Virus record (IMG/VR): IMGVR_UViG_3300044957_000763
Location: 414,841 to 478,840 of that record
Reading direction: 5' to 3' (one strand)
Origin: a virus
DNA length: 64,000 bases
The notes below the pieces were generated by a model. The model worked only from the letters and a program-made list of their open reading frames with translations, was not told where the DNA came from and did not search any database. The translations under genes were made by a program, and so were the position numbers. Of this stretch, positions 17,823 through 53,035 are shown in pieces; positions within the stretch are counted from its first letter, which is position 1; each line of letters opens with the position of its first letter.

Positions 17823-17866
17823 TCCATATTGGATATCAGGTATATTGAATCTCGGAGAAATCATCA

Positions 17867-19018
17867 GTGAAGTTTTTCATTCAACGTAGCATCGTTTTGC
17901 CACTATTGGCGCAAGCACTGGAAACATGCAGTGCCACAAGCAAGCAACATTCTTACACCGACTTCCTTATCGAACTTGGGGAAGGAAAGCTGCGCGTAAC
18001 TAGCATCAATAACTATGCGCAACAATCCATTGTTGTTGATGTCAAAAACATGGACGGAGATGCAACTGCGTCTTTTACGGTTATCGGAAAGAATTTAGTC
18101 GACCTGCTCCGACAGACGCAAGATGAAGAACTCGAGTGCACATACAGCGAAAAGAAACACGCCCTAAAAATTGCCTCGACCACTCGTAAAATGGAGTATG
18201 TTTTCGTAACCGGAAATCCTGAAGAGTTTCAGCCAATTACATTTCAGCCTGGCAAGAAGACGTTTTCTATGCCAGGCGTTGTTTTAGCACAGGCATTTGG
18301 GTACACATATCCTTCCACCAACAAAGAAAGTTCACAGAGACCTTTCACTGCGGTAAAGCTCATTATCAGTAATGACAAACTCGTTGCCGAGTCGACAGAC
18401 CGAAACCGAATCGCTATTTATGATTGCGAAATTCAAGACACAGGTACAGATAACTTTGAGGTTCTTATTCCAAGAGAAGTCGCAGAGTCTGTTTCAAAGA
18501 TTGTTTCTGGCATCGAAAGCGTAACGGTTCGTCCGTGTAATCGACATGTGGTGTTTGAATGGGAAGACACTGAGTTTGTTACATCGCTTGAAACCGATGA
18601 ACAAAATGAATTTATTTCACTGAAAGACTTCTTTGAAAATCCTGTAGTGGCCTCATGTCATATTAGTCGTGAAGACCTGATTCGCTCAATGAAGCTGGCT
18701 GCATTGCTAGATTCAGATGCTGAAATTTATGTTTCTTGTGGTGCAGATGGCCTTGAACTCAGGACAGTTGAGAACGAAATCGGGGCTGGTATTGACACCC
18801 TGCCTGCAAAGGACGTTGAGGGAGAGTCAATGTGCTGTCTGCCACTAAAGCATCTACAGAAGGCGGTAGAGTCATGCGATGAAGCATGGATTACCGTTCA
18901 TTGGTCTCAGCTTGAGAATGGTGAAATTGGTTGTGGAATTGAAGACGGCAATGGTTCTTTGAGATTCTACGTATTTCCTGTTAGAAGCAAGGATTATGAA
19001 GAAGAAATCGAAAACTGA
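17867..19018 (+). CDS. dnaN: DNA polymerase III beta sliding clamp (DnaN-like)
   Basis: 383 residues (E. coli DnaN has 366). It encircles DNA and tethers the polymerase. Three-domain clamp features are visible: LLAQALETCSA near the start, domain 1 ending at EYVFVTGNPEEFQP (bacterial clamps have a conserved EFP here), the middle domain opening with LAQAFGYTYPSTNKESSQRPF (the conserved xxxAxSxxExRPxLxG position), TDRNRIAIYDCEI, and a third domain from residue ~262. GTG 17867 has GGAG 9 nt upstream. It overlaps the delta-like gene by 23 nt, so clamp and loader subunit are coupled. Confidence 0.9.
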   Translation: MKFFIQRSIVLPLLAQALETCSATSKQHSYTDFLIELGEGKLRVTSINNYAQQSIVVDVKNMDGDATASFTVIGKNLVDLLRQTQDEELECTYSEKKHALKIASTTRKMEYVFVTGNPEEFQPITFQPGKKTFSMPGVVLAQAFGYTYPSTNKESSQRPFTAVKLIISNDKLVAESTDRNRIAIYDCEIQDTGTDNFEVLIPREVAESVSKIVSGIESVTVRPCNRHVVFEWEDTEFVTSLETDEQNEFISLKDFFENPVVASCHISREDLIRSMKLAALLDSDAEIYVSCGADGLELRTVENEIGAGIDTLPAKDVEGESMCCLPLKHLQKAVESCDEAWITVHWSQLENGEIGCGIEDGNGSLRFYVFPVRSKDYEEEIEN

Positions 19019-20084
19019 TGTCATTGGCATATGGTCTAAAGTCTACGTTATTGAGGGCGAACCCACTGGGTGCGCCCTTGCTTTAGAAGAGCTCAAAGAC
19101 ACGCTTAACAGCAAAATAGTGCGTGTGTCTGATGCGGAAACACTCAGGGCTACATGTCAGGCATTTCAATTTGGTGGGACTGGTACTATTGTATTGGTTC
19201 AATCCCCTAAAGCCGAAATGCTTGCCTCAATGTTGGATATTTCTAATGCACCAGGAGCGCGTTGTACCGCACTGATAGCTTATTATCCTGGTGCATACGC
19301 CGACCGCAGAACGTCATTTGTTTCTGAGGCCAACAATCGAAATCGCATTTACGAATACGCTTATCACATTGTTAATGAGCCAGAAGAACTTCGCAAACAG
19401 TTAACAGACTGGGAGTCTCGGTCTGGTGTCAAGATTGCTGTAAAAGCCAAACCATGGCTTATAGAACACGCTCCAGTTAATAAAGCGAGTGTCAAAGGCC
19501 CAAAAGGCGCAAAAGAAGAACTTGTCTATGACATACCATCGCTAGAGTCAGACTTAAACAAGTTAGCGGAACTTGCAATCTCAGAAGGAAGAGATATCTT
19601 ATCTGTCGATGACTTGGAGATGGGTGTTTACACTACATCAATAGACAGTCAGTGGGATTATTGTGATGCCTTCATTATTGGAAATGAAGGCATTTTGAAC
19701 ATGGAACCACCAGAACAAAATTACGTTGGTGCCACCAGAATGCTTGCTTCACAGTGTCAGTTTGCTGCTCAAATAAAGGCGTATGGAGACAGTGCAATTA
19801 ACAACTCAGATTCGGTGGCGACGCACATTGGCGGTGCTGAAATGGCTGCCAAATATACGTTCCTTGGCGGGACTGGAGAAGGGTATAAAAAGGCACACCC
19901 ATTCAGGGTCAAAATGGCGGCTCGAAAATTCAAAAATGTTTCTTTGCAGCGCATAGTGAGTTTAATAGAATTGTGTGATGTCGCAACTAAAGATATGCTT
20001 AGTGGATACGCTCATCAAACGGTATACAATATGATGATATTGGCCTCTTTGAATCAAATGCAATACTGTAAGTTCACCAAATAA
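18996..20084 (+). CDS. Probable DNA polymerase III delta subunit (HolA-like clamp-loader wrench)
   Basis: 362 residues, near E. coli HolA (343). It opens with KVYVIEGEPTGCALALEELK, like the HolA start (VYLLxGxExxLxxEAL). A middle helix set SLESDLNKLAELAISEGRDI and DLEMGV parallels the HolA lid (LxxELEKLxLYxG... ITxEDV). The C-terminal collar segment HPFRVKMAARKFKNVS then LQRIVSLIELCDVATK is very HolA-like (HPFRxKxxxxxARxFS). Walker A is absent, as expected for delta. Overlap with the clamp gene supports the call, but identity is inferred from pattern. Confidence 0.72.
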   Translation: MKKKSKTDVIGIWSKVYVIEGEPTGCALALEELKDTLNSKIVRVSDAETLRATCQAFQFGGTGTIVLVQSPKAEMLASMLDISNAPGARCTALIAYYPGAYADRRTSFVSEANNRNRIYEYAYHIVNEPEELRKQLTDWESRSGVKIAVKAKPWLIEHAPVNKASVKGPKGAKEELVYDIPSLESDLNKLAELAISEGRDILSVDDLEMGVYTTSIDSQWDYCDAFIIGNEGILNMEPPEQNYVGATRMLASQCQFAAQIKAYGDSAINNSDSVATHIGGAEMAAKYTFLGGTGEGYKKAHPFRVKMAARKFKNVSLQRIVSLIELCDVATKDMLSGYAHQTVYNMMILASLNQMQYCKFTK

Positions 20085-21582: not shown

Positions 21583-22290
21583 ATGGCCGAAAATAAAGAT
21601 AAACAGGTCGTTAGTTCAATAGTGGTTCCCGGAATGCGAAAGGCATTTCGTGACTTGCCAGTAGAACAGCGTAAATATATTCAGGATTTGAAAGGGGACG
21701 AGCAGCCTTTTTATCCTTTGCCACCTGACCCATATGATGGTGTCACTTATGTTACTTTTCATGAGCCAAAATGTTCTATTTGCTCGTCCCCTTACAAAAC
21801 CCAACTTGAACATGTGTTTCTAGCCAATGGAGAAAGTCCTAGTGCGGTTTCTCAGTATTTCTGGTATTACTATGGCGTAATGGTCAACCCCGCTGCAATT
21901 AAGCAGCACATGAACAAACACTGCGTACTCAATGAAATAACAACATCGGGTTTGGCACAACTTCAGAAACGTGCCGAGGAGTTTGACTGGTGGCGATTGC
22001 GCAGAAGCGAACTGGTAATCACAGGGTTATTGTCGCAAATTGACCGTATTGAAGGTATACGCACAAAGGGCAACCCAGACCTTGAACTAAAGAAATCATC
22101 AGAAATGCGCGCGTTGCTTGCATCATACTCTACAGCACAAAAACAATTTGAAGAAGAAGCCAATGAGGTCATTAGCGTTCGTCATGTCTTGGCAGACATT
22201 ATGAACCTATTGACTGATGAATCTAGTAAAGAAATCATTCGCAAATACGTCAATGACCTCAGAACCAAAATTCGAGGGGATATGTCGTAA
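21583..22290 (+). CDS. Probable small terminase subunit (TerS candidate)
   Basis: 235 residues, directly before and overlapping the large terminase gene by one base. Residues ~63-108 (CSICSSPYKTQLEHVFLANG, then PSAVSQYFWYYYGVMVNPAA and KQHMNKHC) form a zinc-knuckle plus helix-turn-helix pattern seen in phage DNA-recognition proteins (ICxSPxRxEIE... HxxxH). Long helices follow (LQKRAEEFDWW, QFEEEANEVISV), suited to oligomerisation. TerS recognises the packaging site and stimulates TerL. The call relies on position and the HTH pattern. Confidence 0.6.
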   Translation: MAENKDKQVVSSIVVPGMRKAFRDLPVEQRKYIQDLKGDEQPFYPLPPDPYDGVTYVTFHEPKCSICSSPYKTQLEHVFLANGESPSAVSQYFWYYYGVMVNPAAIKQHMNKHCVLNEITTSGLAQLQKRAEEFDWWRLRRSELVITGLLSQIDRIEGIRTKGNPDLELKKSSEMRALLASYSTAQKQFEEEANEVISVRHVLADIMNLLTDESSKEIIRKYVNDLRTKIRGDMS

Positions 22291-25200
22291 TGGCAAAAGA
22301 TAAAAAACAAGACAATTTGCAACAAAAAGAAGACCTGTTGCGAGAATTGACAGAATTCAGCCAAGTTTTTAATACCGATGCTGAGATTGCAGAAGAAGAG
22401 ACATTATTTACGTTTACTTCTCAAGCACGCAGCGAGACACCAGCACCACCTGAGCCTCCGAAATCTCCCAAGAATCCATATGGATTGCATGATATTATCA
22501 CATTTTGTGAGCACCCATATTTTCTTGGTCAAACCCTCACACCAATGCAGAAAATAATCCTAAAGGCATGGTGTATGGGTTCTGAGGGCAACCAACATTT
22601 GACACTGACCAATGAAGTCACGTCAGATTGTTCTGGATGTGCATGGGATTACGTCCGAACCAAAGAAGAAGAACTGTCCAAGATTACGCTTGGAGATGGT
22701 GTTTACAAGTTGCCACCTGGCAGAGTGCCGTCTGAAAATGCGCCGTGTCTAAATTGTACTAGATTCTGCCCTGTTACAAGAGCAAAGCGATTTGAGCAAC
22801 TCAAATACGAAACCATTAATGATTTTGAATTGGAAGATGTTAAACAACGAGAAGAGGCAGAATTAGTTGACCGTTTTGAAACGGAAATGATGATGCTCGA
22901 AAGAGAAGGCATCCCGGTTAAAACCAAAGACCAAATTGTAAGAAAACTCGGTCGTGCTTTCACAGAAATGATTTTGGTAATGGGGCGTCGTAGCGGAAAG
23001 GCACTTGAACTCAATACGCCGGTGTTGACAACTAATGGATGGTCGACCATGGGCGAGTTAAAAGTCGGTGATTATGTATACGGAGAAGACGGTAGACCAA
23101 CTAAGGTTATTGCAGTCAGTCCAGTGTGGGAAAATAGGGAGTGCTTTGAAGTTGAGTTTACAACTGGCGAAGTTATTATTGCAGATGCTGCTCATGAATG
23201 GACTGTATCAGATAAAAATGCCAGAAAACACAAAGACAGATACCATGGAGTTGTTAAAACCAAAACATTAGAAACTAGAGAACTGGCTCAAAAAGTTAAA
23301 ATTGGCAAAGAATACAACTGGGCAATTGATGTGGCAAAGCCGTTAGAAAAAGAGTCTGTTGAATTACCAATTAATCCATATACTATGGGTGTTTGGCTAG
23401 GAGATGGTACTTCTCAAAACGGTTTTATCACATGCCACGAACATGAAATCATGCAACGAATTCTTGCCACTGGTGAATTTGAAAAAGTAGAACAGCATGC
23501 AAGTAATCCAAATCTATGGACATGCTTCGGTCTCAAAATAAAACTAAGAGGACTAGATGTGCTTGAGAACAAGCATATCCCAGATGTGTATTTTTGCGGG
23601 TCTTTAGAGCAAAGGTTAGAATTGCTTCGTGGGTTGGTTGATACAGATGGACATGTAGATGCGCAAGGACATGTAGAAATTGTCAGTGTGAACGAGCGGC
23701 TTGCTAGTGATATATATGCACTAGTGGCATCTGTTGGTGCAAAAGTAAAACTTTACAAAGACCGAGCAATGCTCAATGGAGTAGATTGTGGTCCTCGATA
23801 TCGCGTGTCTTTTTGTCCTCGTGGCGATATAAAAATCGCGCACCTTAAACGCAAACAAAGTAATTGTAAACCAACAGTGCACACATTGCATTCATCTCAC
23901 AGAATTCGAGATATTAGACCGTGCAACGAAAAACACAATACTGTATGTATTGAAGTGGATAATCAATCACACCTATTTCTTGTTGGTCGCTCAATGATAC
24001 CAACACACAACAGCTATCTTGTTGCAATTTTGGCACTATATGCCGTATATCGCTTGATTAAAATGGAGCATCCGCAAAAGGCATATGGTCTGATGGATTT
24101 CGATATTATTACGGTGTTGAATGTTGCTAAATCAGAAGACCAGGCAAAAGGTGCGGTTTTTGAGAAAATCTTTTCTCTGGTTCTTACGTCTCCGTTTTTT
24201 GGACCGTTCGTAGCACACTACACTCAAACCACGCTACACTTTATGACCCCAAGAGACTTGGAGGAGCACGAACGCAGAAAGCGACGTGGAATCACAGAGA
24301 AAAAAGGAACAATCAATCTGATATCCGGTCACTCCAATTCTAGCTCTCTTGTTGGTAAAACAGTTATCGTTCTCATTATTGACGAGATGGCCGAAATGGC
24401 CGGTAAAAAGGGTGACGACGGCAAAGATAAAGAGCTTTACGAAAAGCTGAAGAAATCACTTGCGACATTCGGCTCTGATGGTAAAACAATCTTGCTGTCT
24501 AACCCACTGTACGAAACGGGGGAATTTTATCGTCTGTATGAAACTTCGTTTTCTCGAGAACATGTATTGATGTTTCAGGTTCCAACTGAAATATGTAACC
24601 CAACTGTTGAAAAGTCTTATCTCGAACAAGAGCGCAAAGATAGTCCAGAATCATATTCTATGCATTTTGAGGCCCAATTCGCATCAAGTAGTAAAGACCC
24701 ATTTTTGCCACCCGATATTGTGTCCGCTGCATTTTTCAGACTTGAAAATCAAGGCCGAACAGAAATAGGAAAGCCTGGAGTCAGTTATTTTGTTCATCTT
24801 GACCCTGCATATAACTCAGATATGTACGCTCTAGCCTTAGTACATGCAGAACCAATGAAAGACAAGAAAGACAAAGATGGTCGACCATTGATGGAAGTCA
24901 TTGTCGACCATATTCATATTTGGAAGCCAAAAGACAAACACAACCCAGTCAATCCAGAAATAGTAAATCAATATGTAATTGATTTATCAAAGCGATTCAA
25001 CATAGTTCAGGTTACATATGACCACTGGAATAGCGAGTCGTCTATTTGGATTCTCAAAAGCCATGGTATCAATGCCGAGAAACGCGTGTTCTCGCCTGGA
25101 TATCAAGATATGATTTTCCAAAATATCAAAGACTTAATGATGGGAGAGCGCATACACTTTTATGGCATAGATACATGGGCACAGGATAAAAATGGAGTTG

Positions 25201-25409
25201 TGTGTGTGCGGGAAATCACTGAGGCAAAGAAGCAGTTCACATATTTAGAAAGAGTCATCAAACACAACAGACCTAAAATACAAGCACCATATGGCATCAA
25301 TGATGACGTAGTTGATGCAGTTGTGGCCGCGGCTTTTGAGTGTATCAACACTAAACAATACAAAACAACAGCAAGGCCTCGCGGTGTCAGAATGCCAAGG
25401 GCATTTTAA
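22290..25409 (+). CDS. Terminase large subunit (packaging ATPase-nuclease) with intein
   Basis: 1,039 residues as encoded; removing a 337-residue intein (residues 238-574) leaves 702. It pumps DNA into the prohead and cuts it. Walker A is GRRSGK|S, split by the intein after Lys237 and restored by splicing (GRRSGKSYL). Walker B is VIVLIIDEMAEM. The C-terminal RNase H-like nuclease has acidic residues in FVHLDPAYNSD, VTYDHWNSES and YGINDDVVDAVV. An insertion near the N-terminus holds five cysteines (C114, C117, C153, C156, C160), perhaps a zinc site. GAGGGG lies 10 nt before the ATG. Confidence 0.96.
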   Translation: MAKDKKQDNLQQKEDLLRELTEFSQVFNTDAEIAEEETLFTFTSQARSETPAPPEPPKSPKNPYGLHDIITFCEHPYFLGQTLTPMQKIILKAWCMGSEGNQHLTLTNEVTSDCSGCAWDYVRTKEEELSKITLGDGVYKLPPGRVPSENAPCLNCTRFCPVTRAKRFEQLKYETINDFELEDVKQREEAELVDRFETEMMMLEREGIPVKTKDQIVRKLGRAFTEMILVMGRRSGKALELNTPVLTTNGWSTMGELKVGDYVYGEDGRPTKVIAVSPVWENRECFEVEFTTGEVIIADAAHEWTVSDKNARKHKDRYHGVVKTKTLETRELAQKVKIGKEYNWAIDVAKPLEKESVELPINPYTMGVWLGDGTSQNGFITCHEHEIMQRILATGEFEKVEQHASNPNLWTCFGLKIKLRGLDVLENKHIPDVYFCGSLEQRLELLRGLVDTDGHVDAQGHVEIVSVNERLASDIYALVASVGAKVKLYKDRAMLNGVDCGPRYRVSFCPRGDIKIAHLKRKQSNCKPTVHTLHSSHRIRDIRPCNEKHNTVCIEVDNQSHLFLVGRSMIPTHNSYLVAILALYAVYRLIKMEHPQKAYGLMDFDIITVLNVAKSEDQAKGAVFEKIFSLVLTSPFFGPFVAHYTQTTLHFMTPRDLEEHERRKRRGITEKKGTINLISGHSNSSSLVGKTVIVLIIDEMAEMAGKKGDDGKDKELYEKLKKSLATFGSDGKTILLSNPLYETGEFYRLYETSFSREHVLMFQVPTEICNPTVEKSYLEQERKDSPESYSMHFEAQFASSSKDPFLPPDIVSAAFFRLENQGRTEIGKPGVSYFVHLDPAYNSDMYALALVHAEPMKDKKDKDGRPLMEVIVDHIHIWKPKDKHNPVNPEIVNQYVIDLSKRFNIVQVTYDHWNSESSIWILKSHGINAEKRVFSPGYQDMIFQNIKDLMMGERIHFYGIDTWAQDKNGVVCVREITEAKKQFTYLERVIKHNRPKIQAPYGINDDVVDAVVAAAFECINTKQYKTTARPRGVRMPRAF
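23001..24011 (+). mobile_element. Class 3-type intein with LAGLIDADG endonuclease in TerL
   Basis: In-frame 337-residue insertion in the terminase P-loop, between Lys237 and Ser575. It begins with Ala (ALELNTPVLTTNG), not Cys or Ser, and ends PTHN before Ser. The class 3 triad is present: Trp67 in HEWTV (block B), Cys316 in VCIEVD (block F) and Thr335 in PTHN (block G). In class 3 inteins the block F cysteine makes the first branched ester. Endonuclease motifs are MGVWLGDG and LLRGLVDTDG, so it could still home. Insertion at the ATP-binding lysine-serine bond is a site where only precise loss is tolerated. Confidence 0.93.
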
Positions 25410-26669: not shown

Positions 26670-27797
26670 ATGGGACTAAAAAAGTACGACTTTCTAATTG
26701 TTGGTGCCGGACTTTTCGGTGCAACATTTGCAAGACACGCAAAAGACAGTGGCAAAAAGGTTCTCGTTATAGACAAGCGAGAACACATTGCCGGTAATTG
26801 TTACGATGAGAAAAAAGAGGAAGTGTATGTCGGATTGTATGGTCCTCATTTTTTACATTGCCCAGATAAAGAAACCTGGGGGTTTGTCAATCGGTTTAGT
26901 GAATTCAATAATGTCCGAGCCAGACCAAAAGTGAACTATCAAGGGCAAATTTACAGTTTCCCAATCAATTTGATGACATTTAGTCAAGTATGGGGTGTCA
27001 CAACACCGGCAGAAGCCAGGGCGAAGATTGAGGAAGAGCGGATTTTAATTGAAAACCCGGCTAATTTTGAGGAGTTTGTGCTTTCTAAAGTGGGTCGGCA
27101 AATCTACGAAATGTTCTTTGAGGGATATACAACAAAGCAATGGGGCAGACATCCGTCAGAACTACCGGCGTCTATTGCGAAAAGAATCCCAATTAGATTC
27201 ACCTATGATGATAACTACTTTCCAGACAGTCATGTCTACCAGGGAATTCCAACACAAGGATATACTAATATGTTCAAAAATATGCTAGACGGAATTGAAG
27301 TTGAACTAGGTGTTGATTATATTTCTAACAGAAAATCATTAAGTAAAATAGCCAAGCAAGTACTGTATACCGGCCCGCTTGATGCTTTGTATCATTACAG
27401 ATACGGCAAACTTGCATATCGCAGTTTAAGATTTGAAACCGAAAGAGTTAACGGTGATTTTCAAGGAAATAGTGTAATCAATTACACAGACATCAATGTT
27501 CCATACACCAGAATCACCGAATGGAAGCACAAATACAATATGGATTGTGAATATTCATATATCACACGTGAGTATCCGGCTTCTTATGAAGAGACCGGTG
27601 AAGCGTACTACCCAATAAATGACAGCGCAAATAATGCACTACACAAAAAATACCAACAACTAGCCGACGCAGACTTGTTGTTGACTGGCGGAAGAAATGC
27701 TGACTATAAGTACTATGATATGAACATGGTTATTCCGGCCGCCAGCCGGCTTGCGGAAAAAGCCATTGGGGTAGGTAAGCGCAGCTTAAGTGTGTAA
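26670..27797 (+). CDS. glf: UDP-galactopyranose mutase (Glf)
   Basis: 375 residues (E. coli Glf has 367). This flavoenzyme converts UDP-galactopyranose to UDP-galactofuranose. The N-terminal FAD Rossmann motif is FLIVGAGLFGATFA followed by LVIDKREHIAGNCYD. YGPHFLHC and NRFSEFNNVRARP match the family, as do YTTKQWGRHPSELP, RIPIRFTYDDNYFPD and YQGIPTQGYTNMF. The C-terminal FAD segment is GGRNADYKYYDM. In a phage it could supply galactofuranose for virion or DNA glycosylation, or alter the host surface. No glycosyltransferase is seen next to it. Confidence 0.95.
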   Translation: MGLKKYDFLIVGAGLFGATFARHAKDSGKKVLVIDKREHIAGNCYDEKKEEVYVGLYGPHFLHCPDKETWGFVNRFSEFNNVRARPKVNYQGQIYSFPINLMTFSQVWGVTTPAEARAKIEEERILIENPANFEEFVLSKVGRQIYEMFFEGYTTKQWGRHPSELPASIAKRIPIRFTYDDNYFPDSHVYQGIPTQGYTNMFKNMLDGIEVELGVDYISNRKSLSKIAKQVLYTGPLDALYHYRYGKLAYRSLRFETERVNGDFQGNSVINYTDINVPYTRITEWKHKYNMDCEYSYITREYPASYEETGEAYYPINDSANNALHKKYQQLADADLLLTGGRNADYKYYDMNMVIPAASRLAEKAIGVGKRSLSV

Positions 27798-35700: not shown

Positions 35701-37236
35701 AGCATTAATTACGACCAGTTGCCAGATAATTCAAAACAAAAGGTTGATGAAGCAATTTTGATTGCATCTAACGCTTACAAAAACCAAGGAATGAAATCTG
35801 CATTAATAGCAGACTACACTAAAAAGAACAATCCAACAAAGTTTGTAGGAACAGACCCACAAGTCTTTACAGATGCTAAAAATGCAGTATCTATACAAAT
35901 GGCTAATCATTATGTGATTGATGACTTAGTGCGACGGGCCTCTGAAAATCAATTGTTTGTTAACAATGGCTCCGAATGGAGGTTCTCAGAAAAGGAAACG
36001 ATAGCTTATATTGCGCACACCGTTGCATCAGAAGTTGTTTCATCAATCAAACATCTTGAGACTCCTGGCCATTGGGAATTAGCGCCGCTATCACCAGTTC
36101 AACTGTACACAGGTATTAAGCCTGGTGAAGTACTTAATACAGATGAAATTCAAGGATATATGTCGCATAGACTACTTGAATTCAAAAAAATGTTGACAGA
36201 GCAATGGAAAGTGGAAACGGTTAGTGACTTAAGCGGAACAAGTTCACATATGATAAAAATTGACCGCATTATCAATACGGCTCAAGATATACTTGATGGC
36301 TTATTGCACTCGAGCATGGGCGGAGATGGTAATGATATTGAATTACCAATGGCACAAGCCATGCAGTCGCTACATGCCAAGTCACAAACCGTTAACACTG
36401 CGTTTCAAGAAGACCTTGATGAAAAAATCAATGACCCAAGAACAAACCTAACGCAGTTCCATGATACACATGTGTTGCCGGCATTGCTTAATTCCGGGCA
36501 AGGAAATATTGAACTTGCGGCGGCAAGGGCTATGCGTCAATTGTCATCTGGTGAATCGACATGGCCAATTGTGTCAATTGGAGTCAAGTCTAAGGTCAGA
36601 CAGCGCAAGGCTGACGAGACACAAGAAGATTATGATGCGTTTCTCAATGCAGAGGCTAAGAAGGCTAAGAAAAGCGTTTCATCCTTGACTTCATACGGTC
36701 CAAAGGACATCAAGCGTATAAATTCTGATGCACTTCGAGACAATGTTATGTCTCAGAGAGTTCATGCCGTGCTTTCAAAGCAAATCTTTGATAGACTAGG
36801 GAGCTTGAAAAATGGTGGCGATTACAATTCTGCCGTTAAGAACAGTGACAGGGCGCACTTCGATAAATTGAAATCCAAAGGATATTATGGTCATTTGGAC
36901 GAGGCACCCACTGGCACTGCTGACTTCGTTCATGGAAATATTGGTGTGCTAAACCTTGATGTTTTGCATCCATTATATGAGCGACTGACTGTCGGACATC
37001 AAGTGGGAATTAGAGGTCTTACACAAGAGCAAAAAAATCAAAGAAAGCCGATAACCGAAAATGCGCCAGAGCCTTTGGCACAACCTGAAACTGTTGTAGA
37101 CGCGCAGACCCCCAGCACGCAGGCGGCAGTTATTGATAAACTAGTGCGCTATGCGACCAGGTTAGACGCAAGAGGCAGATTTGCAGAGGCCGATTTGGTT
37201 GATTCATTAATCCATAAGCTAGAGGTGGGTGTGTGA
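29728..37236 (+). CDS. Giant virion-associated protein candidate, 2,502 residues
   Basis: The largest gene in the window (7.5 kb). Start is GTG 29728 with AGGAAG 9 nt upstream. The sequence is helical and charged throughout, with no transmembrane segment, collagen repeat or polymerase, protease or lysozyme motif that I can find. Residues ~170-190 have an Ala/Lys repeat (KAKAKAKAKR). The last ~40 residues carry the LDARGRFAEADLVD motif shared with two neighbours. Giant proteins in head gene clusters of large phages are often internal or ejected proteins, which is the inference here. Confidence 0.85.
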   Translation: MNIKNLLGKLSIGRAGVSTSTGNIVRTGAPEDAFRSGAYEFIRKAQTESVEPTKSNIAKKRMTHPVVLVSRFKYPYVKTKKVPGAEEGDKDTRVETGEIGWKTTVNKDVADEAVNQLYAYELYLYHDTQTGQDLIIGQPIEEYLAKSQAKSQQPAFDLNAPSTPMEEPEWRTEQKAKAKAKAKRANKADIDALMRRFSAGEAAEMDIPTGDFSQDRENEPERYQFKGKITRFTTQPNDPEGQAAKLGAKVVPASEFGYRAYEVMPSPVAGDLYTEPNGEDESKIPTWTKGIHIPTEESPSAYGTSFRYRFSNGEPVPTLNGAKHVLSELLSVNGEKAAKDPGMNADFNIYEFMTANNLWDQMDNSGRLPEGTKAQIDNTEAQIESIPELEHFTLGGGSLVNLGGKKDSIMSEENLLARALWRLTNPSVFTYINNDGTAAFSPKNPDDKNISPLVALDKQLHAARQAYVELFDSLSPAERKVSPELIEAADKANKLGIKFVDTMAAKYPSKLREFVLKQPFVGHAPAGRYGKPGEKVESEYALSTTSHLSDNGRTIATYESGGGLQKLNDDDRKLYALVKAFERNADTALNNQARTLHSQHHAKLEDFTSKDDKSYKIPTPRSADGEWSEPAGKSIDFIEQHWLANHLLSTEDKNAISELRKSLAATGKKYTWGQAAMAYLKNQDRLKVKKYTQGAGMLGSTDHFLSQGPFTFEIPSSNEDEGENELITLNRFTPQSETAEKLKHEVLKQHLFNKQEVELAEYLAGRVPFENEDDALFSIWANWLIKAKRTESANRAEKALAAQEAKEKSKSENARGKPSGWPYALTSQKFSDEEREQFAGNLEDFVNTIKNQAGAVIDHHRKMVYINPDGSQVELPSALPVQLPEGARVPMPVSMLKRIKDDDVLAQYGFVRIKNALYSAVNSQPVTMQDGVLAIGDELVPVESLNNMTPSDIVKNYNIFMRDGKYYHVSEKNRVSSPVVEVIARGGEKISLPSENLGESGLQLLVKYVEQTTRQKLAGGQVHAFESDDDKIKMNDVYTAMLENGASPKNAYLESKKAVMHEKLNSVAVQCLSNGKDASPQHMKAAEVWIPKIIETLLKDGNKQSVEIIADNYDGLDNLMNAARAGRLDVDDAQYLVNTYNNLTGTTPQQGAYIKPIMQAVLLHGYQKESVPGLPNNKFWHMLMSNAGKRFVDRAIDTESGNDLSAQAMLHLMEKPESPLEGYDLGRILPKSTVSLLEKTLKADERRMQRANGRYKTGKRTVVEEWQAMPLPKLLANHMDWITNPQIFGQEMIDNAHELADTELVNQERKRLFPASLEHLSPADAKRLENIQRNATAMYILLQRQASKLEKYPQQDVWDIIMSEPGLDTSSPEWHAKHKLAQHEARIEKTSDSLQEQAKLREQLSIRSMFDVPENEPVIKLSNKDAESIIDQPMVNALASSLMHAQDRDRVSIWGRVNRAFVEEAKSQKSNHAKGVVYPKHSVALTDTSPIMITDDDGKERDVTGYTPEEYENINNTDTKSLYSDDKVLPAEILARINKNTRSILSGSSDGNSKTLLGEFRQKLNEDLMGENQGQITRAQRAEAMYTKIYTMVSRLRRSVLEDKETLAHMDARGAKKALLNKLKSNIENDTNILAMVESYNVFEHLAKMIHFGKEFGKNIDRLTKLDLEEKSIVDRLKDIYPSAQQSPMASAKMYEPEIADRLIEIGKIRTGLCYMAQNNAMSYDESAKELWNFVTRTTYMDKRNIVKGEANDFGVNISNEIAKNESRLSQDDRDEVANMVFDKLDKHARWFEAPSNEVPAYESSAIRVRNLKNIEPLTSEDKEITSDIDADELARFLGRRGVLFALEMGKLDAISGRQKTANVDFGDDSKARVKYTQDFTQPKDMSWFIHNWLENASVSDEATVPGRNGLSALDTAMCELERKFAKPGGIYWTTNGAENPLIQYANPHAMGYSLFAKYVDMTSRVTPAPLEQLMTDACNKISQDVDSIRASINYDQLPDNSKQKVDEAILIASNAYKNQGMKSALIADYTKKNNPTKFVGTDPQVFTDAKNAVSIQMANHYVIDDLVRRASENQLFVNNGSEWRFSEKETIAYIAHTVASEVVSSIKHLETPGHWELAPLSPVQLYTGIKPGEVLNTDEIQGYMSHRLLEFKKMLTEQWKVETVSDLSGTSSHMIKIDRIINTAQDILDGLLHSSMGGDGNDIELPMAQAMQSLHAKSQTVNTAFQEDLDEKINDPRTNLTQFHDTHVLPALLNSGQGNIELAAARAMRQLSSGESTWPIVSIGVKSKVRQRKADETQEDYDAFLNAEAKKAKKSVSSLTSYGPKDIKRINSDALRDNVMSQRVHAVLSKQIFDRLGSLKNGGDYNSAVKNSDRAHFDKLKSKGYYGHLDEAPTGTADFVHGNIGVLNLDVLHPLYERLTVGHQVGIRGLTQEQKNQRKPITENAPEPLAQPETVVDAQTPSTQAAVIDKLVRYATRLDARGRFAEADLVDSLIHKLEVGV

Positions 37237-37634
37237 GCCATAGACTAGCAGTTAGATTTGTCGCAGATTGCGATGAAACACGAACTCGAGGACTGATGTT
37301 CGCGAGTCCACTTGACCAAAACGAAATTGCTCTATTCGTGTTCCCACGAGCTGAGCGACACGCGTTTTGGAATAAGAACGTCGAGTTCCCATTGGACTTG
37401 GCGTTCCTCGATGAGAATGGCAAGGTCGTAGACTTCAAACATTTGGACGCACAGTCCGAATCAAGTGTACGGCCTGCTAGTCCGGCGCGTTTCGTAGTAG
37501 AGGCCGCCAAGGGCACATTCGACCGTTTGAACGTTGCTATGGGCGACTATCTTCTCTATGAAGGTTCAAACATGACAGTTGTGCGTACTAATCAGCAGGT
37601 GAATGCTAGGCAGGCGTATAAGATAATCAATTAA
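37233..37634 (+). CDS. DUF192 family protein
   Basis: 133 residues. RTRGLMFASPL, ALFVFPRAERHAFWNKNVEF then PLDLAFLDENGKVVDF follow the DUF192 pattern (RGLMxRxxLxxxxGMLFxF... FWMKNTxIPLDxxFLDxxGxVV). ARFVVEAAKGTFDRLNVAMG, which matches the C-terminal strand pair (xxxLExxxGxxxxxGxxxGD), completes it. DUF192 is a compact beta fold of uncertain role found widely in bacteria and archaea. GTG 37233 overlaps the giant gene's stop, so the two are coupled; the product may be a virion component. Confidence 0.85.
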   Translation: MSHRLAVRFVADCDETRTRGLMFASPLDQNEIALFVFPRAERHAFWNKNVEFPLDLAFLDENGKVVDFKHLDAQSESSVRPASPARFVVEAAKGTFDRLNVAMGDYLLYEGSNMTVVRTNQQVNARQAYKIIN

Positions 37635-42539: not shown

Positions 42540-44939
42540 ATGAGGAAAGACGGACAAAATGCACCGCGCCTACAGAGTGTTATTACTGAAGCTGTAGAAA
42601 GAGTCAGCAACATACAACCGAGAAACACCGTTGGTGCTCGAGAACACCCTACTATTCGCAGTGCTCGCTCATCATCAGATGTAAAGAGAGACATTCGTGC
42701 GAGATATGCATTTGTTAGTGGTAGCCAAAACACCATTACAACAGCGCCTAATTTTTACACTCCGTTCACGACACCAAGTTCTTTTCAGATTCCCACAAAC
42801 AGAATTGAAGAGTATTTGTGGGCGCAATGGTTTTTTGATAATGAACCTGCCGTTGCGGCATCTATTGAGTTTTACACAGACTTTCCGCTTTCTGGTTTCG
42901 AACTAGAATGTGGGAACTCTAAGGTTCTTGAGTTTTATCAGCAAATGGTCAAAGATTTGGATTTTGCCAGATTGCTTCCGTTGATTAGTCAAGAATACCA
43001 TCTTCGCGGCGATGTATTTGTTTATGCCTCTCTTGATTGCGAGCATTGCGGAGGAACAGGCGTCGACCAAGACACTCATGAGCCTTGCGAACACCTAGGT
43101 GCTAAATGGAAAAGCATCACGCTGCTAAACCCCACACAGGTAGAACTTAGTCCATCAATGATGGACATGCAACCAATTTACTATTACATGCCAGACGAAG
43201 GCATGAAAAAGGTTGTTCAAGAAAGAAAGCCAATTGCAACATACAAGTCAATTCCAGATGCAATTAAGGCTTATATCATGAAAAATGAGCCAATTCCGCT
43301 AGACCCAGTGTGTATCCACCACTTTAAGAGAGGTGCGGCGCCTTGGCAACCATTCGGCCGAAGTATGGTACGAAGGCTTTTTCCCACGCTTGTATACAAG
43401 GATAAGTTACGACAAGCACAGTATTTGGTTGCAGAAAGGCATATTTTACCATTCAAGATTGCCAAGTTAGGCAATGACGACCGACCAGCCAGCGAACAAG
43501 ACCTTCAAATGATTGCGGAAGAAATCGCTAATGTCGCAAACGACCCTTTGATGACAATGATTGCACCGCATACATTTGAAATTGATTATGTTGGCGCAAG
43601 TGGAAAAGTACTACAACTCACAAACGAATTCGAACTTATCAACCAAGATATTTTCGATGGATTCATGCTTAACAAAGCATTGCTCAACGGAGAAGGTCCT
43701 TCCTATGCCAATGCACAAGTTGGTCTGCTTAGTATGGGCCAGCGCCTCAATAAATTGCGCGGAGAAATCGCGCACTGGATTGAAGAAAATCTATTCAAAC
43801 CAGTTGCTGAATGGAATGGATTTGAGGTTGATAATAAGCGTGGTGGAACTAAGTTGGTTTACCCAACAGTGAAATGGGATGATTTGCAATTGCGTGATAA
43901 CACCAATCTGCTGCAAATTGCCATGCAAGCGCGACAAGCCGGAGACCTTTCCTCACAGACAATGCTCGGACTCATGGATATCAACTACGACCAAGAAATT
44001 GAAAGACTACGTATGGAAAACAGCTATGCCGTATCTACGTCTCCAATGTTGCCTGCTGGCGAAATGGGCAATGGATATCGTGGACCAATGGGTGGCGGAA
44101 TGCCGCCGATGGGTGGCGGAATGCCACCAATGGGTGGCGGAATGCCACCAATGGGTGGTGGAATGCCGCCAATGGACGGAGGAATGGGCATGCCGCCAGC
44201 ACCTGGCGGCATGCCACCGATGCCAATGGCTTCAAATAATACCCCAGAAGAAAACTATCGAGAAGCCGTGTCGTTTACCAACGCAGTACATGACAGTGTG
44301 CGCACAAGTTTCTACAATCACACACGTCAGGTTTATGCCAGCAAGTACAAATCTGAAGCACATCGGAACTTTGTTGAATCACAGTGTCCAATTGATGGAA
44401 CTGGATTCCGGGGTGTATTGGCCTCAGAAATGAGTCCATTGATTGACCCGCTAGATGATTATGGACAATATCATGGCGGAGATGAGTCTGTTCCTATGAA
44501 CCCGCTTGCAATGCAAGAACGGCAAAGTGATGTGTCAAACGGTTGGGTTCGCGAAGCAAGAAAGCCATCAAAAGATGAGGACATCAGACCAAGTCCATAT
44601 CAGAAGTTTACAAGTTGGGAAAACAAACTGTACGGAATTGTTCTGAGCATTAACCCTCCATTGCCATTCTATGCACAATACGCGGCAGGGCCTGATGACC
44701 AGTACAGGCTCGATGGTGCGTTCCCTGATATTCAACTGGGTGTTGAGGCAGATAGTGAAACCTATCATTCAACTCCAGAATATATTGAAAGAGACCGTTA
44801 CCGGGATTCACAACTAGCGGCCCAAGGATGGACTTTGTTGCGATTTACAGAAAATGAACTTAAAGAAAGACCGGACGAGGTCCAGACGTTGATTATGCGT
44901 ACAATCCAACATCTAATCAAACGCAAACTCGGGAACTAA
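42540..44939 (+). CDS. Portal protein fused to a DUF559-like nuclease domain
   Basis: 799 residues. Residues ~60-510 are portal-like: EEYLWAQWFFDNEPAVAASI, ISQEYHLRGDVFVY, HHFKRGAAPWQPFGRSMVRR and LNKALLNGEGPSYANAQVG match large-phage portal proteins that form the DNA entry ring. A CxxC...C element (CEHCGGTG, then EPC) lies in the wing. Residues ~518-565 are Gly-Met-Pro repeats. The last ~110 residues look like DUF559/Vsr-type PD-(D/E)xK nucleases: D725 in YRLDGAFPD, E736 and D738 in GVEADS, H743, then RDSQLAAQGWTLLRF. There is no stop between the parts. A terminator follows. Confidence 0.88.
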   Translation: MRKDGQNAPRLQSVITEAVERVSNIQPRNTVGAREHPTIRSARSSSDVKRDIRARYAFVSGSQNTITTAPNFYTPFTTPSSFQIPTNRIEEYLWAQWFFDNEPAVAASIEFYTDFPLSGFELECGNSKVLEFYQQMVKDLDFARLLPLISQEYHLRGDVFVYASLDCEHCGGTGVDQDTHEPCEHLGAKWKSITLLNPTQVELSPSMMDMQPIYYYMPDEGMKKVVQERKPIATYKSIPDAIKAYIMKNEPIPLDPVCIHHFKRGAAPWQPFGRSMVRRLFPTLVYKDKLRQAQYLVAERHILPFKIAKLGNDDRPASEQDLQMIAEEIANVANDPLMTMIAPHTFEIDYVGASGKVLQLTNEFELINQDIFDGFMLNKALLNGEGPSYANAQVGLLSMGQRLNKLRGEIAHWIEENLFKPVAEWNGFEVDNKRGGTKLVYPTVKWDDLQLRDNTNLLQIAMQARQAGDLSSQTMLGLMDINYDQEIERLRMENSYAVSTSPMLPAGEMGNGYRGPMGGGMPPMGGGMPPMGGGMPPMGGGMPPMDGGMGMPPAPGGMPPMPMASNNTPEENYREAVSFTNAVHDSVRTSFYNHTRQVYASKYKSEAHRNFVESQCPIDGTGFRGVLASEMSPLIDPLDDYGQYHGGDESVPMNPLAMQERQSDVSNGWVREARKPSKDEDIRPSPYQKFTSWENKLYGIVLSINPPLPFYAQYAAGPDDQYRLDGAFPDIQLGVEADSETYHSTPEYIERDRYRDSQLAAQGWTLLRFTENELKERPDEVQTLIMRTIQHLIKRKLGN
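44088..44192 (+). repeat. 21-bp tandem repeat coding Gly-Met-Pro linker
   Basis: Four 21-bp units starting at 44088, 44109, 44130 and 44151, plus a degenerate fifth, encode MGGGMPP. They link the portal core to its nuclease-like tail and could vary in number by replication slippage. Confidence 0.9.
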
Positions 44940-44999: not shown

Positions 45000-45069
45000 G
45001 GTCTAAGGGCAAACATTGCCGAACGCACATATAGACGTTAACTTTTCAAAAAGTTGTTTTGGAGCGAGC

Positions 45070-48000
45070 ATGTTACGAAAGGGTATATCAGGAAACCTAA
45101 TTGGGCGCAATCAAATAGAGTTCATTGACCCGGCCGAAGCTCGGCGGGTCATCATTGCTGCCAAAAATGGCAAACAAAGCCTATATGCAGACCCAGCAGA
45201 TGTGCTCAATCGAGACGTTGAAGGCGATTTTGATTTATTGAAAGAAATGAATGACCGCCAGGGATACAATCTCTTGTGGGTCAGATGTCGTGCTATTGAC
45301 GCTGATACGATTAATGCCAATGGTGATTATTTCTCAGCAGAAGAGCTTCTTAAAGAAGTCATTCACCATGGAAAAAAGGTTCCGGCTTATAAAACCTTTG
45401 AAGGTTGTCCAATCCACACTAATCACGATAACAAAGACATCACCAAGGCTAAAGGCGAGGTCGTATATGCAGAGTGGGATGATAAAAACCAGTGCGTGTG
45501 GTGCACGTTCTATATATCAGAAGACGCATACCCAGAAATTGCCAATGGTATTCGCATTGGTATGATGAGCGATGTCTCAATGGGATGTACTGTTGAGAGC
45601 GGCTTGTGTTCTGTTTGTGGAAAAGAGGCCGTTCGTGTTGATGACTACTGCGAACACCTTAAAAAATACAAAGGCAAGAAATTGCCTGGTGCGAACAGTA
45701 AGGTGTATGAAAAAAACAAGGGTATCAAGTTCATTGAACTGTCTCTGGTTAATGATGGTGCATTTGACAGTTGTGCAATTAGCGAACTCTATGACCAAGA
45801 CGAACTAACTCAAAAAGCACTTGAATTCAACCGAAGAGTTGCTGAGATTCGAAATCATGTTTTGACAGCGGGTCACCTTACTGCTGAAATGACGCCTTCT
45901 GTGCGCAATGCATATGAGGGCATGCTAAGAACTGTTGTGAGCACAACCACAACTGCTGTTAGAGTGGCGCAGACCCAAGTAGACAATCCACAGTTACTTG
46001 CAACTAATGGTGCAAATGCCAATTCTACCGTTGCTGGAATTTTGAAGGCACTTGGAATGGACGCAAGACAACAACTTAACGTGCTTGACTTGCTAAATGT
46101 TGCGCTTAACTTCCTTGAAGTCGCAATTATGCAGATGTTCACTCGCAAAGATAATGTTGATTTACAACACGTATCAAAGATTGCCAAAGCTATGTCTGAC
46201 CTTCAAGGAACCATGCAAGACTTAATTGACGATGGTGTTGATTCACCAGTAGGTGCCATTGCCGGTACTGGTGGTGCTGCAGGAACATTGCTAAATCCAG
46301 GCGGCGGACAAACAGGACAAACCTCTGTAGCACAGGCACCAGGCCAAGCACAAGCACCCGTACAACCATATAATCCGGCAGAAGGCGGAGTCGGACAAAT
46401 GATGTCACCTGTTCAAGTAAGTGAAAGGTCATTTACTACTGAAAAACCACTCAACCCATTATTAGGCGAAAGCAATAGACGCCAATTGGTATGGGCAAAC
46501 AAAGATAGTTCAGAGGAGCGAGAAGTATACGCATCGCGCAAATCTAGAGCCAATAACATAGAACGATTTGGTCAAAGCCTATTAGCTTTGGCTGAAAGCG
46601 TTGGGGCTGGCCCACTGGCGGCACCAATGTCTACACGTGCCGCTAATAACGAGCAACCAGTGAGAAGTACTAAAACAGTGCAAAATAACGGAGACACAAC
46701 CAAGATGAAAAACCCATTCCAGAGAATCGCAAGTAAATTGCGTGAAAGGAAGCCACTCGAGGTCTCATTCTCAGCAGAGGCTCACAGTCCTGATACAAAC
46801 CACAGAATTGTAGTTTCAACGAAAGGAGACATCGAAGGCTACTATATGAACCGGCTTGCCAATTGGCAACCGCAACTCAACGACCACCTTATTAGTGCAA
46901 TCGAGCAAGAGAACCTTGATTATGCGCTTCCTGTTTTAATGGAAGACTTTCAAAATCATGTTCGAAACGCACAGACTAAAAACATTGACATTTGGTCAGA
47001 TATTGACCTTGAACCAGAGGGTGAAAAGGATGTCAAGGAAAATGCACTTGAGGGTGAACGACACCCGGTAAAGGGCGATGGTGAAATCATTGACAGCTAT
47101 GTCAAGACAAAGCGAACAAACCCTGCTGGTGACACAACCATAGAGGACGAACTTGAAGCCAAAAGAACAGGCACGGATTCTAAGGCTAAAGAAGAGTTGC
47201 TCGAAAATGCTGGTCTGTATGCACGTCGAGATAATGGTCAGGAAGTACATGACTTCCTGGTTGACGATGCACGTTGTGGATGCCCTGACGAACATATTGA
47301 AGAGAGGCTCAAGGGTCGACACGGTCGCAATGACAAGGTGGAAACACGCAAACTTGCAAGCAATATCGCCACCGAACTCGGCCGCGCTGCTTATGCTGCT
47401 CGTGTGACACCAGAAGAGATTATCGAAGTCTCTACAAAAATTGCACAACGAGAAGACCTTGAGGAACTTATCGCTCTGGCATCTCTGGGTACAGATACCA
47501 GAGAGCGAACTGCACAAAGACACGCTTTCTTTAACAACTCATCTGTAATGTTGGGTGCTGAAAATGCTATCTATCACGGTCTTGGCAAAATCGTCAGCGA
47601 TGACATTAAAGCCGGTGACGTTGTAGACGGTCTTCGTGCTGTAATTAGCGAGCGAGAACTTGCTGGAAAATTGATTACTCGAATTGCAAAAACAATGGTT
47701 GAGAATGCACCAACAACTTATGCTGATGTTGTGGTTAAAGCATCTCGCGAAGAACAACTGCGAACTGCTTTGAATTCTCTTGCAGATGGCGAGACTGAAA
47801 CCAGTCGGGGTCATCTCAAGGCTGTGCTTTGCGCTCTAGCAGGAGCTGCAGATGAGTGCCAAGCCGCGCCTGAAGAGGTTATCAATGTAATTGCATCACG
47901 CAATTCTGGTGAAATCTTCGAAACACTCGGCATGTACAACAGCGCAAGTGCACGAGAGGCCAGAAATACTCTTAGACAAAGAGAAGAGTTCTATGGCAAG

Positions 48001-49302
48001 CGAATGGCATCTAAGAAAGATGTCGAGCACACCGTGTTCGGCTGGATGTCAGATTTTGTCCACGATGGTCAAATCGACAGCTACGCGCTTGCCGAAGCGG
48101 CAAGCCTTCTCGGAGCTCGACCTGTTGCTGCGACTAATTTACTTGGTCGACTGCTCGAACGCCAGGCGGCAATTTCGGTTACAGATGAAAAGTGCACAAC
48201 CAAGAGACTGACAGCAACTGTTAGTGACTTTGAAGACCTAGACCCCAAGTCAAATGACTTCGACCAACAGTTTAGAATGCGTGCAATGGACATCTTCCGA
48301 CAAGCTGGTTACGATGTTGACGATGGCACATTCAACCTAACTAGTTTGAGTGTTGACCAGTCTGGAAACATTCAAGCTGAAGTCTCCGCACGACTCACCA
48401 AGACATTCTGTGTCGAAGGAAGTAAAGTTGGCGCGGGCATGGATGCGGTAAACGAACTTCCAGTTGAAGCCACACTTGCAGAAAACACACCAATGGAAGA
48501 TGAATCTGGAAATCTCTACACTGTTTCGGCCATGGATGTGCTTGGAATGGAGCGAACTGCTCAAGCCGCACCAGGAATGGGTGGCGGAATGGGAATGGGA
48601 ATGCCGCCGGCTGCACCAGCGGGTGGTGGTGTTGACCCGTTGGCCGGGGCTACCGACCCAATGGGCGGAGGCTTTGCTTCAATGACAGTACCTAGTGAAT
48701 CAGGGGCGCCAGGAACTGAACCAGTTACCGACACTGTAAACGCAGACGATATGTCAGAACCGGGCACAAAACAACCATGGGGGACAGTGTGTCCTGTCTG
48801 TGGTTCAAAGGACGTTAGCATTGCTAACGGCGAAGGTGAGTGCCAGAGCTGTGGTACACAATTGAAATTCAAGCTGATGGTCGAGGCCGCTCCGAGCACC
48901 GATGATGCTGGCGGCGGAGACGAGGGTGCCGATGCTGGAGTGGATGACATGGGTGCAATGCCTGGTGGTGACATGGGCGCTGCACCAGCCATGCCTGCGG
49001 CTGGGGCACCAACAGACCCAATGATGATGCAAGCAAGTTGGACAAGTTCGCCGCTGGTATGGCAACGATTTGCTGCGGCTGGTCAAGGCGTTTCTGAAAA
49101 AGAAGCAACCAAAGCCAGACAAGCAATGAAACAATTACCAGTCGGACATGTTTGCCCTGGCTGTGGCGACCGTGAACAAATCGAGAAGATTCGAAATAAG
49201 ACTATTTGTACTGCTTGCGGTACGGTGGCTGTTTCCAAGGTTGCGGCAGTAGAAGGACAGCCTAATCTGTTGTCCAATACCATCTACTGGATACTCGAAT
49301 AA
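45070..49302 (+). CDS. Prohead protease with long scaffold-like region and two C-terminal zinc ribbons
   Basis: 1,410 residues. Residues ~1-250 form a prohead protease: ADTINANGDYFS, CPIHTNHD (His116 or His119), then GIRIGMMSDVSMGC (Ser167 or Ser170), consistent with a His-Ser catalytic pair of the herpesvirus-assemblin-like fold. CSVCGKEA and a later Cys/His may bind zinc. The middle (~300-1180) is helical and charged like a scaffold. Two zinc ribbons end the protein: C1241, C1244, C1258, C1261 and C1362, C1365, C1380, C1383. ATG 45070 is chosen (GGAG 5 nt upstream); the frame is open to TTG 45016. An internal ATG at 46705 with GGAG could start a shorter scaffold product. Confidence 0.85.
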   Translation: MLRKGISGNLIGRNQIEFIDPAEARRVIIAAKNGKQSLYADPADVLNRDVEGDFDLLKEMNDRQGYNLLWVRCRAIDADTINANGDYFSAEELLKEVIHHGKKVPAYKTFEGCPIHTNHDNKDITKAKGEVVYAEWDDKNQCVWCTFYISEDAYPEIANGIRIGMMSDVSMGCTVESGLCSVCGKEAVRVDDYCEHLKKYKGKKLPGANSKVYEKNKGIKFIELSLVNDGAFDSCAISELYDQDELTQKALEFNRRVAEIRNHVLTAGHLTAEMTPSVRNAYEGMLRTVVSTTTTAVRVAQTQVDNPQLLATNGANANSTVAGILKALGMDARQQLNVLDLLNVALNFLEVAIMQMFTRKDNVDLQHVSKIAKAMSDLQGTMQDLIDDGVDSPVGAIAGTGGAAGTLLNPGGGQTGQTSVAQAPGQAQAPVQPYNPAEGGVGQMMSPVQVSERSFTTEKPLNPLLGESNRRQLVWANKDSSEEREVYASRKSRANNIERFGQSLLALAESVGAGPLAAPMSTRAANNEQPVRSTKTVQNNGDTTKMKNPFQRIASKLRERKPLEVSFSAEAHSPDTNHRIVVSTKGDIEGYYMNRLANWQPQLNDHLISAIEQENLDYALPVLMEDFQNHVRNAQTKNIDIWSDIDLEPEGEKDVKENALEGERHPVKGDGEIIDSYVKTKRTNPAGDTTIEDELEAKRTGTDSKAKEELLENAGLYARRDNGQEVHDFLVDDARCGCPDEHIEERLKGRHGRNDKVETRKLASNIATELGRAAYAARVTPEEIIEVSTKIAQREDLEELIALASLGTDTRERTAQRHAFFNNSSVMLGAENAIYHGLGKIVSDDIKAGDVVDGLRAVISERELAGKLITRIAKTMVENAPTTYADVVVKASREEQLRTALNSLADGETETSRGHLKAVLCALAGAADECQAAPEEVINVIASRNSGEIFETLGMYNSASAREARNTLRQREEFYGKRMASKKDVEHTVFGWMSDFVHDGQIDSYALAEAASLLGARPVAATNLLGRLLERQAAISVTDEKCTTKRLTATVSDFEDLDPKSNDFDQQFRMRAMDIFRQAGYDVDDGTFNLTSLSVDQSGNIQAEVSARLTKTFCVEGSKVGAGMDAVNELPVEATLAENTPMEDESGNLYTVSAMDVLGMERTAQAAPGMGGGMGMGMPPAAPAGGGVDPLAGATDPMGGGFASMTVPSESGAPGTEPVTDTVNADDMSEPGTKQPWGTVCPVCGSKDVSIANGEGECQSCGTQLKFKLMVEAAPSTDDAGGGDEGADAGVDDMGAMPGGDMGAAPAMPAAGAPTDPMMMQASWTSSPLVWQRFAAAGQGVSEKEATKARQAMKQLPVGHVCPGCGDREQIEKIRNKTICTACGTVAVSKVAAVEGQPNLLSNTIYWILE

Positions 49303-52174: not shown

Positions 52175-53035
52175 ATGAGCAACATCCGAAACGTATATGG
52201 CATTGACGAGCAAAACGAAGAGTTTCTCGCAGCCGCTATGGACACCCCCGAAGGTCGCGTCGCACTTGCGCAGGCAATGGTTGAGCCCATCAAAACATCT
52301 TTGATGTACCAGGGCGTTGGCCGAAAACTGCTGATGGTTGACGAACTACCGCAGGGTGCCCTTCCTCGCTACGAGCGAGACATCGCAGTTAAGTCTTACG
52401 TAATGAGTAAGCGTGGCTCAGTTCCAACGTCTATCGTTGAAGCTGAAGAGTTGATGGTGCCGGTTCTTGAAATCGCTTGTAACCCAACCGTTAAACTCAA
52501 CGAAATCCGTGCACGACGATTCTACATTGTAGACCGAGCACAGGTTCGTGCGAAGGACTCATTGCAACGACAAGAGGATGCAGAAGTCTTCCGTGTTATT
52601 AACGCGGCTGTACCTGCGGCACACAACATCACGGTTACTGGTTCACTCCAGCCCGAGAACATCAACCTCGCTCTGTCTCTCATTGAGGAACACGAGTTGA
52701 TTGGTGCGAAGATTGTTGTGCACCCTCAGCGCTACAAGGACATCCGAACATGGGGTAAGGAATTCTATGATGAAGCGACAACTCGCGACATCTTGATGAC
52801 CGGTCTCTTCGGCCACCTGTACTCTGCAGACATCCACGTCAGCACAATCGTTCCAAAGAACGCTGTCTACGTACTGGCACCTGCCGCCTTCGTTGGCGCG
52901 ATGCCTGTTCGCCAGGACATCACCGTTCTTCCGAGCGACGACCCTCGACGACTCCGCCTCGGCTGGGTCATCTTCGAGGAACTTGGCTTCGCCGTTATCA
53001 ACGACTACGCCACCGCTCGAATCATCGTTAGCTAA
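52175..53035 (+). CDS. Major capsid protein (HK97-fold candidate)
   Basis: 286 residues, with a strong ribosome site (AGGAG, 10 nt before ATG 52175). N-terminal helix RVALAQAMVEPIKTSLMYQG, then strand-rich E-loop-like part, RRFYIVDRAQVRAKDSLQRQ spine-helix-like segment, ALSLIEEHELIGAKIVVHPQ and AVYVLAPAAFVGAMPVRQDI, an order seen in phage capsid proteins. C-ending codons dominate, unlike the rest of the window, as expected of the most abundant product. The terminator right after it supports a high-output unit. No N-terminal maturation site is obvious. Confidence 0.85.
   Translation: MSNIRNVYGIDEQNEEFLAAAMDTPEGRVALAQAMVEPIKTSLMYQGVGRKLLMVDELPQGALPRYERDIAVKSYVMSKRGSVPTSIVEAEELMVPVLEIACNPTVKLNEIRARRFYIVDRAQVRAKDSLQRQEDAEVFRVINAAVPAAHNITVTGSLQPENINLALSLIEEHELIGAKIVVHPQRYKDIRTWGKEFYDEATTRDILMTGLFGHLYSADIHVSTIVPKNAVYVLAPAAFVGAMPVRQDITVLPSDDPRRLRLGWVIFEELGFAVINDYATARIIVS

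Follow-up and report, generated by a model that had tools for sequence, protein, structure and literature searches.

The 64-kb window analysed here is the final part of a 478,840-base virus record (G000:C1:414841-478840) and reads as the part of a giant tailed phage genome given to head building and packaging, with genes for DNA polymerase, the terminase large subunit (TerL), the portal, a head protease and the major head protein all on the + strand (Table 1). Within this structural-gene region also lie genes for a UDP-galactopyranose mutase (26670-27797; GLF, 230.9 bits) and a DUF192 protein (37233-37634; 80.9 bits). The 1428-aa protein that carries the head-maturation protease domain (45016-49302) additionally contains Gly/Met/Pro-rich linkers and C-terminal zinc-ribbon-like motifs, and the P[LM]N motif that the protease has in common with the portal is a weak lead.

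Table 1. Features of the portal-nuclease gene and of genes near it (window coordinates).
Feature	Position	Strand	Details and evidence
Portal-nuclease fusion gene	42540..44939	+	799 aa, ATG start; full-length AF2 model vs PDB portals, best E 3.9e-9
Portal core, residues about 60-500	42717..44039	+	phrog_16240 2e-37; Portal_Mu; Foldseek portals T4, lambda, G20c
Zinc-finger-like insertion in portal core, C167-x2-C170 ... C183-x-H185	43038..43094	+	Alignment
Gly/Met/Pro linker of low complexity (residues about 506-566), predicted to be disordered	44055..44237	+	Low pLDDT
Middle segment (residues about 567-667), of moderate conservation and helical in part (569-594)	44238..44540	+	
DUF559/MTES_1575 nuclease domain, residues about 690-799	44607..44936	+	Pfam, profile, AF2, Foldseek, alignment
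Head-maturation protease domain, N-terminus of 1428-aa protein	45016..49302	+	phrog_18299 head maturation protease 3.5e-20; phrog_2774 4e-26
Major head protein, query for finding relatives	52175..53035	+	phrog_2522 7.8e-69
Large terminase with intein at Walker A	22290..25409	+	C-terminal nuclease motifs HLDPA, NDDVVDA intact

The 799-aa open reading frame is a phage portal joined through a Gly/Met/Pro-rich linker to a C-terminal domain of the DUF559/MTES_1575 restriction-endonuclease (REase) fold. Sequence profiles (phrog_16240; Pfam Portal_Mu, 33.6 bits against a cut-off of 23.9) and Foldseek comparison both place the core among the tailed-phage portals, with the E values given in Table 1. 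The closest characterised portal is gp14 of Bacillus phage G, which is 28% identical over residues 39-501 but has a Pro/Gly-rich tail end and no nuclease. The full-length AF2 model has low overall confidence (mean pLDDT 61.9) and was used only for the portal match and for linker disorder, its pLDDT staying below 50 across residues 490-566. Within the core, the C167-x2-C170...C183-x-H185 pattern is invariant in a 21-row alignment of fused portals and suggests a zinc-binding insertion; the portal of phage G lacks this Cys/His stretch. An earlier note on this DNA had described a portal fused to a DUF559/Vsr-like PD-(D/E)xK domain at 44550-44939, which corresponds to residues 671-799, with a Gly-Met-Pro linker in between. 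The fusion is fully supported by Pfam, AF2 and Foldseek, and the linker is the low-complexity stretch listed in Table 1.

Queried on its own, the C-terminal 168 aa matches PF18741 (MTES_1575) at 39.9 bits (cut-off 38.2) and PF04480 (DUF559) at 32.3 bits (cut-off 20.6); with the whole protein as query, MTES_1575 comes to 38.0, just below its cut-off, and DUF559 to 29.0, above it. A profile built from 28 relatives retrieves from the PDB the DUF559-like structure 3hrl (E=2.6e-9) and the homing endonuclease I-Bth0305I (3r3p; about 8e-7). The AF2 model of the nuclease domain (pLDDT 86.6) shows the alpha-beta-beta-beta-alpha-beta order that forms the core of the DUF559/MTES_1575 type of PD-(D/E)xK fold, and its top Foldseek ranks are I-Bth0305I (7.7e-5), 3hrl and the repair enzyme Vsr (1cw0). 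Foldseek matches to the mitochondrial ribosome are presumably REase folds that are inactive.

The active-site pattern of the DUF559/MTES_1575 enzymes, E...D...ExD...H...D..R, is present in full. D725, E736, D738 and H743, each exactly where the earlier note had placed it, are unvaried in all 86 distinct sequences, as are D752 and, within the segment RDSQLAAQGWTLLRF (residues 755-769), R755, D756, G763, W764 and R768; E694 is kept in every sequence that reaches that position (84/84). Position 739, the usual Gly of ExDG, is Gly in 84 of the 86 sequences and Ser in the window and one other row, and is not a catalytic residue. Two outcomes had been named beforehand as telling against the nuclease, namely a structure prediction lacking a REase-like fold and loss of the catalytic residues in homologues; the AlphaFold model has the fold, and the residues are kept in all homologues. 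Chance is excluded, since dozens of relatives carry the domain in the same position and its active site does not vary among them. Judged from the alignments, the nuclease active site is complete and kept, and the portal-fused domain is probably catalytically active.

Relatives were gathered in two ways. A scan with the major head protein yielded 41 loci; 31 of these, some identical to one another, hold part or whole of a portal frame with the nuclease. A scan with portal-core patterns, independent of the nuclease, yielded 81 loci, 80 of them viral and the other from a collection of bacterial genomes; 75 of the 81 are fused, five end with their contig before the domain would begin, and one (L122) is split by an in-frame TGA. 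All complete portals from the core-based scans thus carry the fusion (75/75), which answers the earlier note's call to look for it in related genomes, and the portal-core scan revealed no fusion-free allele inside the clade. The in-frame TGA lies in the linker and parts portal from nuclease (L040:927-929 and L122:6678-6680, the same contig); it may be a sequencing error, a split gene or a site of readthrough. The only match of a single-sequence portal scan, L002, proved false, arising through a GGMPPMG repeat. The portals of phage G, LR745208, Rctr197k and Tunturi_5 have no nuclease, and neither do those at 16 loci from a sister set resembling phage G. We also considered that these sister phages might carry the nuclease as a separate gene beside the portal, and rejected it: a profile search of the same 16 loci and four phages found none (best E 0.63).

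In a maximum-likelihood tree of 75 portal cores, all 59 fused rows fall on one side of a branch with support 100/100; the root position is not fixed, and the tool flags the outgroup branches as long. The simplest history of the fusion compatible with these sequences is a single gain. Identities of core and nuclease correlate at r=0.96 over 1953 pairs, a value reached in none of 999 Mantel shuffles, and core and nuclease have therefore been inherited together. The fused clade extends down to 40% core identity with a single invariant domain type and no swapping. By the Nei-Gojobori method, dN/dS across 74 close pairs comes to 0.027 in the core, 0.116 in the linker (residues 501-688) and 0.023 in the nuclease; the pairs are non-independent and dS is near saturation in many, and only the ranking is used. 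By this ranking residues 501-688 are the fastest-evolving part of the protein, and the nuclease appears to be held as tightly as the portal core. Two unusual portals were seen along the way. One relative (L053 / G003:C1 around 14655-19133) has a single 1622-aa portal-nuclease frame with two large insertions in the portal core (about 436 and 380 aa), which are probably inteins. Another locus (L227:4674-7721) encodes a phage G-like portal in a 1016-aa frame whose long C-terminal extension has no Pfam match above cut-off; given this extension, portal tails may have served to carry cargo on more than one occasion.

A clue to the host comes from a 1.36-Mb contig of an Armatimonadetes metagenome-assembled genome (MAG), JAFDWS010000002.1, which contains a close relative with the same fusion and a portal 85% identical over residues 1-517. 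About 531 kb of this contig (L155 and G012:C5:1-531000) are largely collinear with the present genome as a circular permutation. Near groEL the GC content shifts from about 0.53 to 0.61, where the phage part joins Armatimonadetes-like sequence of higher GC, and the other contig end is cut within a second (phage) groEL; the junction is either a misjoin through groEL or a recombination. The contig suggests an Armatimonadota host for this phage group. In the present record, G000:C1:135787-137816 reads by eye as the phage's own GroES and GroEL.

We then asked which nuclease tasks the genome already covers. TerL is interrupted by an intein inserted in its Walker A motif, after GRRSGK and before the following S; the intein carries a LAGLIDADG homing endonuclease, and in one relative (L067) this site also holds an insertion. 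The idea that TerL lacks its nuclease and the portal supplies it was rejected, as TerL of the window and of relatives retains the HLDPA and DDxxDA motifs. Likewise rejected was the idea of a genome without a resolvase: an endonuclease VII lies at 386443-386661 (71.5 bits) of the present genome, and the phage in the MAG encodes one too, although genome searches found neither RuvC nor RusA. With TerL motifs intact and an endonuclease VII of the phage's own, the portal nuclease replaces neither. The earlier note's suggestion that the domain helps headful cutting is thus unlikely in so far as it means replacing the TerL cut, whose RNase H-type nuclease motifs are intact.

A further candidate for replacement is gp4 of T4 (PF08722, TnsA-like), a virion-associated protein with a nuclease of REase fold that is needed for morphogenesis (PMC7824862). 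It is a separate small protein of another Pfam family: the window domain does not belong to PF08722, which is not among its matches at E up to 1. PF08722 was also not found in the nine fusion-bearing genomes searched, the present one included, several of which may be fragments; the T4 positive control was found. This absence counts in favour of a packaging-linked role for the portal nuclease. Phage G and a 504-kb relative (G001) have neither the fusion nor PF08722. Because these two do without both, the portal nuclease cannot be taken as established in the place of gp4, and an absent gp4 forces no replacement, which weighs against a role on the phage's own DNA.

Published portals indicate where the nuclease would sit. 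The T4 portal has its stem, wing and crown within the capsid and its clip outside, with crown and wing touching the DNA (PMC9958956), and C-terminal GFP fusions of the T4 portal gp20 place GFP in the prohead interior (PMC10893049); a P22 study describes the C-terminal portal barrel as putatively pointing inward (PMC4992974). Because portal C-termini face inside in T4, the nuclease is expected in the head interior, by analogy on a tether of roughly 190 residues. The earlier note had it tethered at the DNA entry vertex, which needs correcting as to side, since portal C-termini lie inside the capsid (in P22 putatively) rather than on the terminase-docking side.

We favour the reading that the portal-tethered DNase works within the head on the phage's own DNA, while packaging is under way or the head is being completed, and give it a probability of roughly 45%. 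Each portal subunit would end in an active-site-complete, metal-dependent DNase of the DUF559/Vsr type (EDxHD-like), attached by a long and flexible tether. With twelve such subunits making up the portal ring, the nucleases would lie inside the head around the DNA channel. There, while packaging proceeds or shortly afterwards, the domain would clear DNA that stalls or protrudes at the portal, whether irregular or terminal, by nicking or trimming it, a duty comparable to that of T4 gp4 that would complement the terminase cut without replacing it. Confined together with the genome, such a nuclease needs either specificity or gating, and the packaged genome might be spared through substrate specificity, tether geometry or removal of the domain by the adjacent maturation protease. 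Such a housekeeping role is favoured by the fixation of the fusion, its single origin and a strength of selection equal to that on the core, and by the precedent of other nucleases linked to packaging (T4 gp4, endonuclease VII). Against it stand the facts that the obvious packaging nuclease jobs are already filled by TerL and endonuclease VII, and that, if not gated, a free DNase in a filled head would put the genome at risk. The stronger version, in which the portal DNase is obligatory across the clade and up to twelve tethered nucleases process or proofread the phage's own DNA at the portal, we put forward tentatively and with somewhat lower confidence. We know of no portal-borne DNA processing or proofreading step in any studied packaging motor.

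The main rival reading is that of an effector: the maturation protease would free the domain from the linker, and it would leave the head along with the genome to cut the host chromosome, plasmids or competing phage DNA, in the manner of T4 internal proteins or MuF-type toxins. Published portal fusions to a PBECR RNase, a 2H phosphoesterase and an InPase have been read as injected effectors (PMC5512222), and a nuclease domain occurs in over half of 191 putative MuF toxins (PMC5576092). The linker is long, predicted disordered and fast-evolving. The prohead protease processes giant phage portals, albeit N-terminally in the known cases (PMC5694885), and here a protease gene lies directly downstream; the head-maturation protease of the 1428-aa protein is a candidate enzyme for cleavage of the portal linker. 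Injected domains of the MuF and portal type are variable and exchangeable, and the present domain is neither: one type persists across the clade without swapping, it tracks the core (r=0.96), and its dN/dS of 0.023 is unlike that of polymorphic effectors. No immunity gene was recognised, though without a dedicated search. We regard ejection as rather unlikely, and the cutting of rival DNA proposed in the earlier note as less favoured, the domain bearing no arms-race signature.

The remaining alternatives have less in their favour. T4 endonuclease VII works at the portal gp20 during packaging and frees stalled Y-DNA (PMC10893049), and the fused domain might similarly be a debranching enzyme that resolves Y or Holliday junctions stalling DNA at the portal. 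The T4 enzyme is a separate protein acting on stalled branches, and its nuclease fold differs from that of the portal-fused domain. Debranching is improbable: both this genome and the phage in the MAG already encode an endonuclease VII, and DNA branches are held up outside the channel, on the other side from the expected inward position of the portal C-terminus. Slightly less probable again is a captured homing endonuclease, an EDxHD-type nuclease that entered the portal gene at its 3' end and still serves chiefly to spread itself. The catalytic domain does resemble I-Bth0305I, the closest solved fold (Foldseek 7.7e-5, profile 8.4e-7), DUF559 and homing endonucleases are common in phages, and this phage has at least one further homing nuclease, in the TerL intein; but Pfam recognises no DNA-recognition module, and the clade scan found the fusion fixed in all members, with one origin, tight co-inheritance and no alternation of present and absent alleles. 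A homing origin followed by domestication is compatible with action on the phage's own DNA. REase-fold domains without activity are known, so the domain might be a catalytically silent DNA-binding or structural module; with every catalytic residue invariant (86/86), this seems very improbable.

The nearest precedents are the portal-effector fusions of Iyer et al. 2017 (PMC5512222), which likewise place an enzymatic domain on the portal. Those domains are RNases, phosphoesterases or nucleotide-directed, whereas the present one is of DUF559/Vsr DNase type, fixed in its clade and strictly conserved. Vsr, DUF559 and EDxHD endonucleases (1cw0, 3hrl, 3r3p) have the fold and active-site pattern in common with the portal-fused domain, but occur as free-standing repair, restriction-like or homing enzymes, or under phage helicase annotations, and not on portals. 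No published portal-DUF559 or portal-DNase fusion was found in the open-access literature; portals fused to other enzymes are already known, and the DUF559/Vsr-type partner, as read from sequence, appears to be new.

Portals are usually regarded as passive or valve-like rings, and the nuclease steps of packaging are credited to terminase or to separate proteins. Here a complete predicted DNase active site lies inside the portal polypeptide itself across a diverse clade of giant phages, under constraint like that on the core. If active, it would point to an unrecognised DNA-processing step in the head, or to a simple way of loading nucleases at portal copy number for delivery to the host.
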